A DNA stretch of 64,000 bases from an uncultured Candidatus Melainabacteria bacterium (GTDB lineage Bacteria; Cyanobacteriota; Vampirovibrionia; Gastranaerophilales; Gastranaerophilaceae): positions 124,001-188,000 of the forward strand of contig CANARY010000001.1 of the NCBI GenBank assembly GCA_947364235.1, read 5' to 3'. Within the stretch, counting starts at the first letter, position 1. The number at the start of each line of letters is the position of its first letter. A program made the position numbers and the translations under genes. The notes below the pieces were generated by a model. That model was not told the DNA's origin, did no database searches, and worked only from the letters and a program-made list of their open reading frames with translations. Shown here one piece after another: positions 34,325-54,763 of this stretch.

Positions 34325-34390
34325 ATGTTAGCAGAAATAATAAAGCTACTAATCGTAGCAACGCTATTCATAGTAGCTTTTAAACTGTAA
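34325..34390 (+). CDS. Locus A: 21-residue hydrophobic peptide (type I toxin-like)
   Basis: ATG at 34325 follows a strong GGGGGTGA ribosome binding site. The peptide starts MLAEIIKLLIV and ends FIVAFKL: one hydrophobic helix flanked by Lys, like small membrane toxins. The 5' UTR (from ~34255) has a hairpin CTGAC (34278-34282)/GTCAG (34304-34308) holding ACACACA (34281-34287). The 5' segment TAGTACCC (34259-34266) is complementary to GGGTACTA (34399-34406) downstream of the stop. Homologous arrangements occur at 49862-50153 and 54495-54763. Toxicity is inferred, not shown. Confidence 0.7.
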   Translation: MLAEIIKLLIVATLFIVAFKL

Positions 34391-34457: not shown

Positions 34458-34486
34458 ATTATTTATGATTTTTCAGCTTTTGTCAA
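34458..34486 (-). promoter_or_regulatory. Antisense promoter, locus A
   Basis: On the minus strand TTGACA (34486-34481), 17 nt, AATAAT (34463-34458). The same hexamers and spacing are found at the antisense promoters of loci B and C. It lies across the 3' end and stop codon of the PHP-domain gene. Confidence 0.72.
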
Positions 34487-48464: not shown

Positions 48465-48489
48465 ACGAAAAAGAAGAATGGAGGGAAAT

Positions 48490-49851
48490 ATGGAATTTCA
48501 ACACCAGCCGCTTAACGGCGCAACTTACACAGATGCTGATATAAAAAGGCTTATTACTGAATATAATGTTCAGTTTATCAAGCTTCAGTTCGTTGACATA
48601 AACGGGCAGGTTAAAAACTTAGCTGTACCGTCAGAGCATATTGACAGAGTGCTTAATAATGAAATGATGCTTGACGGCTCTTCGATTAAAGGATTTAGAA
48701 ACATTGAAACTTCCGACATGTTCTTTTATCCTGACAAAAACACATTTCAAATCCTTCCTTGGCAGGAACGTGACGGCAAAAATTCTGCAAGATTAATTTG
48801 TGATATTTACAACGCAGACGGAACTCCGTTTGAAGGATGTCCAAGATGCAACTTAAAAAGGCTTATGGCAGAAGCTCAAAAACTTGGTTTCTCAATGAAT
48901 GTAGGACCTGAAGCCGAGTTCTTCCTGTTTGAAAAAGATGAAGAAGATAGAATTACCACAAAAACTCATGACCGAGCAGGGTATTACGATGTCGGACCTG
49001 ATGATTTAGGTGAAGCTGTACGTTCAGACATCGTAAGCACTCTTCAAGAAATGGATTTTGATATAGAAGCTTCTCACCATGAAGTTGCAGACGGCCAGCA
49101 CGAAGTTGATTTCAAATATTCAGACATCTTAACAACAGCTGACAATGTTGCAACTTTTAGAGTAGCAGTTAAAGCAGTCGCTGCACAATATGGTTTACAC
49201 GCTACATTTATGCCAAAGCCTGTTTATGGAATTAACGGTTCTGGTATGCACTGCAACATTTCTTTATTTAAAGACGGTAAAAACGCTTTCTTTGATGAAA
49301 AAGCTGAATATCAGCTTTCTGATACTGCCAGATATGCAATCGGCGGTTTATTAAAACATATAAAAAGCATAACAGCAATTCTCAATCCTACAGTTAACAG
49401 CTACAAGCGTTTAGTTCCGGGTTATGAAGCTCCTGTTTACATGGCTTGGTCTCTTGCAAACAGAAGTGCTCTTCTAAGAGTGCCTGCTAAACGCGGAATG
49501 TCTACACGTGTCGAACTTCGCTCGCCAGACCCTAGCTGCAACCCTTATCTTGCTTTTGCAACTATTCTTGCAGCCTGCCTGGATGGTGTAAGAAACAAAA
49601 TCGAGCCTCCAAAACCGGTAGAAGCTAATATTTACAAGCTCTCAGACAGAGAAAGAAAGAAAATGAAAATTGAATCTCTTCCTGGAAGTTTAGAAGAAGC
49701 TTTAGGATACATGGAAAAATCTCTTATTTCTAAAACAGCCCTCGGAGATCATATTCTAGACGAATTTTTGACAGCAAAAGAAATTGAATGGAATTCGTTC
49801 AGAACTTACGTTTCTCAATGGGAAATAGATAAATACCTGGCTAGATACTAA
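48490..49851 (+). CDS. glnA: Glutamine synthetase, type I
   Basis: About 453 residues. QFVDINGQVKNLAVP, MMLDGSSIKGF, GPEAEFFLFE, DGQHEVDFKY, NGSGMHCNISL and the ATP/glutamate region NSYKRLVPGYEAPVYMAWS, RSALLRVPAKRG match GSI. Its short length and lack of a clear adenylylation-loop Tyr (KLSDRERKKMKIESLPGSL) suggest the GSI-alpha subgroup. GGAGGG precedes the ATG at 48490. The stop at 49851 is followed directly by the antisense promoter of locus C. Confidence 0.95.
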   Translation: MEFQHQPLNGATYTDADIKRLITEYNVQFIKLQFVDINGQVKNLAVPSEHIDRVLNNEMMLDGSSIKGFRNIETSDMFFYPDKNTFQILPWQERDGKNSARLICDIYNADGTPFEGCPRCNLKRLMAEAQKLGFSMNVGPEAEFFLFEKDEEDRITTKTHDRAGYYDVGPDDLGEAVRSDIVSTLQEMDFDIEASHHEVADGQHEVDFKYSDILTTADNVATFRVAVKAVAAQYGLHATFMPKPVYGINGSGMHCNISLFKDGKNAFFDEKAEYQLSDTARYAIGGLLKHIKSITAILNPTVNSYKRLVPGYEAPVYMAWSLANRSALLRVPAKRGMSTRVELRSPDPSCNPYLAFATILAACLDGVRNKIEPPKPVEANIYKLSDRERKKMKIESLPGSLEEALGYMEKSLISKTALGDHILDEFLTAKEIEWNSFRTYVSQWEIDKYLARY

Positions 49852-49861
49852 TAAGGTAATA

Positions 49862-49890
49862 TTGACAAATATATTAAAATAGTAAATAAT
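49862..49890 (+). promoter_or_regulatory. Antisense promoter, locus C
   Basis: TTGACA (49862-49867), spacer 17, AATAAT (49885-49890), start near 49898. Identical hexamers and spacing drive the predicted antisense RNAs of loci A and B. Confidence 0.75.
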
Positions 49891-49897
49891 AAAAATA

Positions 49898-49977
49898 CAG
49901 GGTGGCACCTTGAGAAAGTGCCGATACTCTATAGAGATTGAAGTAACACTTATCTGTTTAGATGGGTGTTACTTTTT
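49898..49977 (+). ncRNA. Locus C: predicted ~80-nt antisense RNA
   Basis: It begins ACAGGGUGGCACC, has a small hairpin GGCAC/GTGCC (49903-49907 with 49918-49922), and ends in a classic terminator: AAGTAACAC (49941-49949)/GTGTTACTT (49966-49974), extended inwards by two U-G pairs and ATCT/AGAT, then TTTTT. It is complementary to the last codons, stop and 3' UTR of the peptide mRNA on the other strand. Confidence 0.7.
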
Positions 49978-50030
49978 ACTATGTATAAAATCAAAAATAA
50001 CATTATTAACGTTAAATTGAGATTTTCCAT
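49950..50030 (-). CDS. Locus C: 26-residue hydrophobic peptide (type I toxin-like)
   Basis: Minus-strand ORF from ATG 50030 with an excellent AAAGGAGG site 5 nt away. The peptide begins MENLNLTLIMLF, has a hydrophobic run to YIV and ends KSNTHLNR. Its 5' UTR (start near 50117) contains ACACACA (50084-50078) in a GAAC..TCAAC / GTTGA..GTTC hairpin. The 5' segment GATACTCT (50108-50101) is complementary to AGAGTATC (49930-49923) in its 3' UTR. The end of the ORF is overlapped by the predicted antisense RNA. Third member of the same family as loci A and B. Confidence 0.72.
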   Translation of the reverse strand: MENLNLTLIMLFLILYIVKSNTHLNR

Positions 50031-50124
50031 AATTACCTCCTTTCTCCGGAACTATCAACCGAGATTGAAACATAAATTGTGTGTTGACGGTTCTTTGAAA
50101 AGAGTATCTTTTACCCATATAATA

Positions 50125-50153
50125 ATTTTACAATAAATTTTCCAATTTGTCTA
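50125..50153 (-). promoter_or_regulatory. Promoter of small-peptide mRNA, locus C
   Basis: Minus strand TAGACA (50153-50148), 17 nt, TAAAAT (50130-50125): the same pair as in locus A. The first TAG is the coaX stop codon, exactly as the fliI stop is used in locus A. Confidence 0.72.
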
Positions 50154-50900
50154 TTTATTCAGCTGATACAAAAATCTCAAACCTTCTAAAGTTAGATAAG
50201 GATTAACAAAATCAAATTTTCTTGTCATGTATTTAGAAATCAAAGTTGAGTATCCGCCGGTTGCAATAATAATTGATTTACCGATTTCTTTTTCACATTG
50301 CTCAATCAAACCTTCAATAGCGCATGCAGAACCTCTGATTACGCCGGACAAAATTGCATCTGCTGTATTATCGCCCACAGCTTTTTCCGATTTATTGATT
50401 TCGATTTTAGGAAGTTTAGAAGTAGCACTATTCAATGCTTTTAACTGCAAATTCAGTCCCGGCATTATAACTCCGCCTATAAAATTACCTTCTTTATCGA
50501 TAATATCAAAAGTTGTTGCTGTACCTAAATCTACAATAATCGCAGGTTTTGAATACAGAACATAAGCTCCGCAAGCGTTTGCAATTCTATCTGCTCCAGC
50601 TTCTTTAGGGTTTTTAAGTTTGATATTAATACCAAGATTAGATTTTTCAGTAAGTAAAATTGAATTCAAATGAAAAACATTATCAAGCGCATGTTTAAAT
50701 ATTAAGCTCAATTCATCGACTACAGATGCAGTGATACAAGCACTGACTTTATATTTTTTAAACAAAGTATGTAATAAAATTTCATATTCTTCCTGCGGAA
50801 GTTCTTTATCAGAAGGAAGTCTAAATGTCTCAACAAGGTTTTCGTTATCAAAAATTCCTAACGTAATACTGGTATTACCAATATCAACCGTCAAAAGCAT
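50151..50900 (-). CDS. coaX: Type III pantothenate kinase
   Basis: 249 residues, ASKHA fold. LTVDIGNTSITLGIFD (phosphate 1), ACITASVVDEL, NPKEAGADRIANACGAY and AIIVDLGTATTFDIID (phosphate 2) with GGVIMPGLNLQLKAL are the CoaX signatures. It starts coenzyme A synthesis and needs a monovalent cation. It follows two WYL-regulator genes with a 0-base gap, so it shares their transcript. Confidence 0.93.
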   Translation of the reverse strand: MLLTVDIGNTSITLGIFDNENLVETFRLPSDKELPQEEYEILLHTLFKKYKVSACITASVVDELSLIFKHALDNVFHLNSILLTEKSNLGINIKLKNPKEAGADRIANACGAYVLYSKPAIIVDLGTATTFDIIDKEGNFIGGVIMPGLNLQLKALNSATSKLPKIEINKSEKAVGDNTADAILSGVIRGSACAIEGLIEQCEKEIGKSIIIATGGYSTLISKYMTRKFDFVNPYLTLEGLRFLYQLNK

Positions 50901-54602: not shown

Positions 54603-54671
54603 ATGATTAAGCAAATAATAATGCTATTACTGGCATTTGCAATCACAGTAATAGCACTAAAATTGAATTAA
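54603..54671 (+). CDS. Locus B: 22-residue hydrophobic peptide (type I toxin-like)
   Basis: ATG at 54603 follows AAAGGAGGG. The peptide starts MIKQIIMLLLAF and ends VIALKLN, close in length and C-terminus (I/V-A-x-K-L) to the locus A peptide. The 5' UTR has a long hairpin TTCATC/GATGAA enclosing CAATTT/AAATTG, with CACACACA in between (54558-54565). Its 5' end GTAGGGC (54530-54536) is complementary to GCCCTAC (54722-54728). A single hydrophobic helix with Lys near both ends suggests a membrane peptide; toxicity is inferred. Confidence 0.7.
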   Translation: MIKQIIMLLLAFAITVIALKLN

Positions 54672-54734: not shown

Positions 54735-54763
54735 ATTATTTACTATTTCAATATATTTGTCAA
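54735..54763 (-). promoter_or_regulatory. Antisense promoter, locus B
   Basis: Minus strand TTGACA (54763-54758), spacer 17, AATAAT (54740-54735), immediately beyond the stop of the phosphoesterase gene. The same pair is present in loci A and C. Confidence 0.75.

Follow-up and report, generated by a model that had tools for sequence, protein, structure and literature searches.

The locus between glnA and coaX in this Gastranaerophilales genome, which is from a gut bacterium related to cyanobacteria, is very probably a type I toxin-antitoxin module that is encoded on the chromosome and represents a new family, where the toxicity of the peptide and its neutralisation by the antisense RNA are inferred. 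At the level of sequence, this reading rests on the parts of the module, the conserved complementarity of its two RNAs, the coding constraint on the peptide, the multi-copy spread of the element, and the asymmetry of its lesions. The locus is part of a 64,000-nucleotide stretch of DNA (the window), in which glnA (48478-49851, plus strand) and coaX (50151-50900, minus strand) flank two converging transcription units. Both host genes are directed towards this cassette, which is hence located downstream of both. The following features were identified, with all transcript starts and ends inferred from the sequence in the absence of expression data for this uncultured organism:

49862-49890, plus strand: antisense RNA promoter, TTGACA (49862-49867)-N17-AATAAT (49885-49890), 11/12 consensus, containing the family signature TTGACAA-N8-AAATNGTAAATAAT used in the signature search
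49897-49978, plus strand: predicted antisense RNA and putative antitoxin of ~82 nt (fold -29.7 kcal/mol, z = -4.5; hairpin pairs co-vary in 28 cassettes)
within 49897-49978, plus strand: predicted 5' stem-loop of the antisense RNA, AGGGUGGCACC..GUGCC..CUCU
49941-49974, plus strand: predicted 3' terminator hairpin of the antisense RNA, followed by a U run
50125-50153, minus strand: toxin mRNA promoter, TAGACA (50153-50148)-N17-TAAAAT (50130-50125), 10/12 consensus
near 50118, minus strand: inferred start of the toxin mRNA
49886-50118, minus strand: predicted full-length peptide mRNA of 232 nt with a 5'-3' closed fold (-59.2 kcal/mol, z = -5.1; class A alignment)
50102-50116, minus strand: 5' arm of the long-distance interaction, GGGU (50116-50113) and GAUACUC (50108-50102), from own versus cross pairing and the predicted fold
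50036-50043, minus strand: Shine-Dalgarno sequence AAAGGAGG
49950-50030, minus strand: 26-codon hydrophobic ORF, putative toxin of class A, MENLNLTLIMLFLILYIVKSNTHLNR and stop (15-residue hydropathy 2.65)
49933-49937, minus strand: 3'-UTR anti-Shine-Dalgarno UCUCU, pairing with the Shine-Dalgarno sequence in the consensus fold (pairs 87-91/193-197)
49900-49929, minus strand: 3' partner of the 5' arm, GAGUAUC (49929-49923) and ACCC (49903-49900), from own versus cross pairing and the predicted fold
49922-49904, minus strand: predicted mRNA terminator hairpin GGCAC/GUGCC, flanked by the 3' partner segments

The strong promoters that an earlier note on this DNA had proposed for both strands were found to be present, as was its hydrophobic ORF, with a Shine-Dalgarno sequence upstream. 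The proposed plus-strand RNA of ~80 nt was also recovered, with a terminal hairpin of 16 bp preceding a stretch of U's, but a strict terminator scan of the locus did not flag this hairpin and called no terminator. The two RNAs are complementary over ~80 nt, including the last ~9 codons, the stop codon, and the whole 3' UTR of the peptide mRNA, in agreement with the antisense overlap put forward before; the mRNA itself ends in a hairpin and a U-rich run around 49886. In contrast, the ~90-nt leader, described in that note as structured, is not an independent structured unit, as its 5' end is predicted to pair with the 3' end of the mRNA. A T-box was considered for the start of the antisense RNA, where AGGGUGGCACC resembles the T-box core, and was rejected given the absence of an Rfam match and the variation of the motif among cassettes.

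Further copies of the element were found in the host genome through a DNA search. The signature occurred three times in the window, compared with 0.03 occurrences expected from shuffling, and the window holds three cassettes, with antisense promoters at 49862, 54735, and 34458. The second and third cassettes comprised the following features:

54735-54763, minus strand: antisense promoter of the second cassette (signature)
54603-54671, plus strand: class B peptide of the second cassette, MIKQIIMLLLAFAITVIALKLN
34458-34486, minus strand: antisense promoter of the third cassette (signature)
34325-34390, plus strand: class B peptide of the third cassette, MLAEIIKLLIVATLFIVAFKL

Across the genome, ten copies of the signature with at most one mismatch were identified, all within the same kind of cassette. 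Together with a cassette at C1:348000 (L002) and one at C1:43629, which was counted as weak and probable, the genome contains about 12 cassettes. They have in common two promoters, a leader, a Shine-Dalgarno sequence, and an antisense RNA over the ORF end and the 3' UTR. More than 100 cassettes of the same architecture were found in relatives, and the two units were conserved together across many genomes, as the earlier note had predicted.

At least one signature match was present in 27 of 58 genomes of the same genus, with a maximum of ten per genome. Some of these matches were arranged in tandem at distances of ~310-330 nt, and a few were promoters of something else. The named matches were mostly from Candidatus Gastranaerophilales or Melainabacteria bins. 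A sequence model of the class A toxin side (R1) matched 26 of 56 same-genus genomes and, in the order as a whole, 71 of 192 genomes, representing 25 of 45 genera, with one exception in the same family; outside that family, no R1 match was found among 292 sampled genomes of the phylum. Many copies used a second form of the antisense promoter, TTGAAA-16/17-TATAAT. A strong promoter-like site from which the antisense RNA could be transcribed accompanied 65 of 66 class A ORFs, with best scores of 10.8-12.8. While 12.5% of random 200-nt windows reached a score of at least 10.8, most of the class A scores were at least 12.5, a level reached by 1.2% of such windows. Outside the near relatives, the strict signature was also observed upstream of type IV pilin-like genes (L097, L120, L127, L162, and others), with an N-terminus like FTLAEVLITLGIIGVVAA on the opposite strand of the scanned frame. 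This suggested a wider use of the promoter form in the order, and promoter matches alone were for this reason not counted as cassettes.

An ORF scan of all copies identified a Shine-Dalgarno sequence and a hydrophobic ORF of 20-33 residues opposite the antisense RNA in about 100 of them. Both were present in all peptide classes, with the Shine-Dalgarno sequence at a near-constant distance. At least seven classes were distinguished, besides which a further one was seen:

Class A: MENLNLTLIMLFLILYIVKSNTHLNR, at 49950-50030 of the window
Class B: MIKQIIMLLLAFAITVIALKLN
Class C: MTKEIIKTVITVIITVFKILLIWL
Class D: MIFCITEKALWLILAITIALIFIK
Class E: MISLLFYIVKCHKEKFPALEILEIILKS
Class F: MIVEILTTITKALVILELLAKLILAILQL
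Class G: MREVIKKALALIGLLIDIILLIL
Further class beyond A-G: MQLEINARELALLIILILELKVLFS

Among 59 distinct class A ORFs, pN/pS was 0.43 in frame compared with 0.75 and 2.87 for the two alternative frames, indicating from sequence variation that the class A ORF is under coding constraint. No match to the peptide was found in Pfam, NCBIfam, or PADLOC at E values up to 5, and the suggestion of a candidate new peptide family was thereby strengthened. In class A, the antisense terminator hairpin is located at the ORF end; in other classes, such as B, it falls inside the ORF. Covariation of its base pairs was observed across 28 cassettes. A shift by one base altered the C-terminus of the peptide (LKTVLTRKNKNR) in several copies of class A that had retained the hairpin, suggesting that the constraint acts on the protein in the membrane core and on the RNA in the tail. 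Some class B copies, such as L015, have an antisense 5' domain resembling that of class A, which suggests that parts were exchanged between cassettes; whether the classes share a common ancestor or were exchanged was not resolved.

The toxin mRNA of almost all cassettes begins with GGG or AGG, and the next few bases are complementary to the sequence immediately downstream of the stop codon. In class A, the 5' GGGU is also able to pair with ACCC at the 3' end. Because RNAalifold missed the long helix in the class A alignment, where the 5' arm was misaligned by MAFFT, duplex energies were compared between own and swapped arms. For 27 class A cassettes, the own arms reached -11.7 kcal/mol compared with -7.45 kcal/mol for permuted arms (sd 0.50; 0/2000 permutations). 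Further class A cassettes (N = 61, mostly newly fetched, with some overlap with the first set) gave -11.84 versus -8.05 kcal/mol (sd 0.30; 0/2000), and the other classes (N = 72, including some wrongly anchored 5' ends) gave -7.99 versus -6.11 kcal/mol (sd 0.22; 0/5000). Pairing of the 5' arm with an ORF segment revealed no clear difference between own and permuted arms. Among 72 class A cassettes, 48 distinct helix cores were found, for example GATACC/GGTATC, GATGCC/GGCATC, GACAGCTC/GAGCTGTC, and AAATCTC/GGGATTT. The much stronger own pairing, achieved through 48 different helices, suggests that the full-length toxin mRNA is probably closed between its 5' and 3' ends, as are the hok and AapA mRNAs, while the fold itself was not probed. 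In the consensus fold, the Shine-Dalgarno sequence pairs with a UCUCU-like element of the 3' UTR; this pairing is conserved with little variation and is therefore not proven by covariation. The 5' arm covers part of the segment targeted by the antisense RNA, an arrangement that recalls the hok and aapA mRNAs. A class A subgroup with TTGAAA-type antisense promoters (L245, L247, L225, and L227) carries another version of the closing helix, with AAGGGGCAAACCTGTATC at the mRNA start and TACAGGTT as the 3' partner.

A mechanism can be proposed from these features. The minus strand would yield a stable toxin mRNA, in which 5' GGGU...GAUACUC pairs with its own 3' GAGUAUC...ACCC and the Shine-Dalgarno sequence is sequestered by the 5' arm together with the 3'-UTR anti-Shine-Dalgarno element, so that no translation is expected from the full-length message. 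On the plus strand, a promoter close to consensus would give rise to a short antisense RNA, fully complementary to the ORF end and the 3' UTR, and the target of this RNA would be the segment also used by the 5' end of the mRNA. Opening of the mRNA, for example through an inferred 3' trimming, may expose this segment to the antisense RNA, leading to destruction of the message, probably by RNase III, whose role is likewise inferred. If the antisense supply failed, for example after loss of the locus, translation would follow and the peptide, a presumed membrane-inserting toxin, would harm the cell. The convergent, 3'-overlapping arrangement with an antitoxin RNA remained the best reading of the locus, as first proposed, where the support is limited to the architecture and the inferred function because data on toxicity and neutralisation are lacking.

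The copy at the glnA-coaX junction is lineage-specific, as the junction was empty in three relatives. In G044, glnA and coaX are convergent and ~36 nt apart without a cassette, and no cassette was present at the junctions of G043 and G022. In the latter two (L275 and L277), short repeats of the CACTATTCACTA form were observed to occupy the cassette site. The earlier note had held that host genes conserved without the element, combined with decay of the ORF, would refute the proposal; of these, the empty sites were observed, but the ORFs were not decaying. Among damaged copies, the antisense unit was kept while toxin parts were lost in L071, L077, L079, and L081, an insertion separates the leader from the ORF in L224, the leader was replaced in L251, and the toxin carries a frameshift in L301, all with the antisense unit retained. 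A loss on the antisense side was seen once, in the last tandem copy of G036, where an intact class A ORF lacks an antisense promoter; the other tandem copies could act on this ORF in trans. Toxin-side lesions thus outnumbered antitoxin-side ones by seven listed to one, with low counts that depend in part on the search strategy. Among eleven paralogues of the genome, the antisense RNA averaged -161 kcal/mol on its own mRNA compared with a mean of -48 kcal/mol on the others, and the nearest paralogous pair reached -114 kcal/mol. This strong preference suggests that paralogous cassettes are probably largely independent of each other.

Short single-span peptides can be non-toxic regulators, and coding constraint by itself is no evidence of toxicity, leaving room for a small, non-toxic membrane peptide with a regulatory or structural role, the amount of which is adjusted by the antisense RNA. 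We consider this unlikely, as a host regulator poorly fits up to about 12 copies, unrelated peptides in one RNA architecture, patchiness, tandem arrays, and empty sites, while the toxin-side lesions with the antisense unit kept, and the resemblance of class C to the toxic peptide ShoB (see below), suit toxicity better. The strong RNA structure, the multi-copy spread, and the C-termini that are frameshifted with the hairpin DNA retained could also be explained by a non-coding RNA pair or a small repeated mobile element with an incidental ORF. Such an origin appears very improbable given a pN/pS of 0.43 in the ORF frame only, the Shine-Dalgarno sequence conserved at a near-constant distance, and a hydrophobic ORF in every class; for a mobile element, the flanks also differ, and terminal repeats or a transposase were not seen in the cassettes examined.

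The position between glnA and coaX, in turn, raised the possibility of an attenuator, leader peptide, or riboswitch of either gene. This was rejected as hardly tenable, since gene orientation already contradicts it by placing the cassette downstream of both genes, cassettes also occur at unrelated sites, relatives have a glnA-coaX junction without a cassette, and an Rfam match is absent. A type I toxin-antitoxin module remained the preferred interpretation.

No match to the element was found in Rfam, or by BLASTn in phage and plasmid collections, and a search of the titles and abstracts of the available papers retrieved no report of such a system in Gastranaerophilales or Melainabacteria. Judged by sequence comparison, the family belongs to no known system, while its predicted mRNA behaviour is like that of hok and aapA and its layout is like that of TxpA/RatA. 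The TxpA/RatA and BsrG/SR4 pairs of Bacillus and the convergent pairs of C. difficile likewise combine a convergent 3' overlap with a hydrophobic toxin. To our knowledge, a 5'-3' closing helix like the present one is undescribed for any of these, and end-to-end pairing of the mRNA in a TxpA/RatA-like convergent layout is new here. The C. difficile pairs, including CD2517.1-RCd8, encode toxins mostly of 46-53 amino acids, with two of 34-35 (PMC6563280); they are multi-copy as here, but their toxins are longer than the 20-30 amino acids of the present family and share no detectable similarity with them.

The hok/Sok system of Proteobacteria shares the closure of a stable toxin mRNA by 5'-3' pairing, where 3'-end processing is needed for activation (PMC6733600), with the closure in the present family resting on sequence covariation only. 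The target of Sok is close to the site at which translation of the leader gene begins (PMC12390103), whereas the antisense RNA here covers only the ORF end and the 3' UTR; the peptides are unrelated, and no overlapping leader ORF as in hok was identified. The aapA/IsoA systems of Helicobacter and relatives, which also require 3' trimming for activation, share a multi-copy chromosomal family, an antisense RNA of ~80 nt, a long-distance 5'-3' interaction, and a downstream anti-Shine-Dalgarno element sequestering the Shine-Dalgarno sequence (PMC6733600). They differ in occurring in another phylum, in the lack of any peptide or RNA similarity found, and in the antisense terminator hairpin, which here is located at the ORF end or within the ORF. 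In the same phylum, Cyanobacteriota, MsoT1/MsoA1 of Microcystis was the only candidate found; the antisense RNA likewise covers the coding 3' end and the 3' UTR, MsoT1 has 63 amino acids and two predicted membrane helices, unlike the 20-30 amino acids here, and 5'-3' closure is not discussed in the parts of its report that were consulted (PMC12390103).

Class C peptides aligned without gaps to E. coli ShoB over 20-22 residues, with scores of 39-53 (47-53 for four of the five members) compared with 20 +/- 4 and a maximum of 33 for 29 other membrane segments. Class A, with a score of 27, did not stand out. The resemblance to ShoB may reflect convergence, as homology was not shown; OhsC, unlike the present antisense RNA, is encoded apart from shoB and has no overlap with its 3' end.

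Taking the classes together, we lean towards a superfamily with an RNA chassis, consisting of the antisense promoter, the end-to-end closing mRNA, and the antisense terminator embedded in the coding region. Unrelated membrane peptides would have been swapped into this chassis, giving rise to at least seven classes. Such a superfamily would join hok-like closure to TxpA-like convergent control and spread addictively through chromosomes and at least one prophage. The large paralogous family, the several peptide classes, the end-to-end mRNA closure, and the antisense terminator inside the ORF were all absent from the earlier note. The family looks like a new and rapidly spreading group of RNA-controlled toxins, of a kind almost unknown in this branch: up to 2025, when a single Microcystis candidate was added, reports of type I systems were confined to Proteobacteria, Firmicutes, and Tenericutes (PMC12390103). 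If confirmed, the presence of this family in many copies and many genera of the non-photosynthetic sister group of cyanobacteria would extend this range, and more than 100 natural variants of one RNA switch would be at hand. The conserved closing helix gives a precise, testable prediction of how translation is blocked, the proposed swapping of peptides within a single RNA frame is relevant to the origin and spread of such modules, and the strict antisense promoter signature offers a practical handle for finding further cassettes.

The insertion in the class A cassette of L224 (G027:C69, ~490-700) is about 200 bases long, has the inverted ends CACTACTGTCCGGT and ACCGGACAGCAGTG, and resembles a small non-autonomous transposon. 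A complete class B cassette was also observed in a phage or prophage, IMG/VR contig 3300010163_000078 (L201, ~2200-2560), where it is located between the tail tape-measure and baseplate hub genes.
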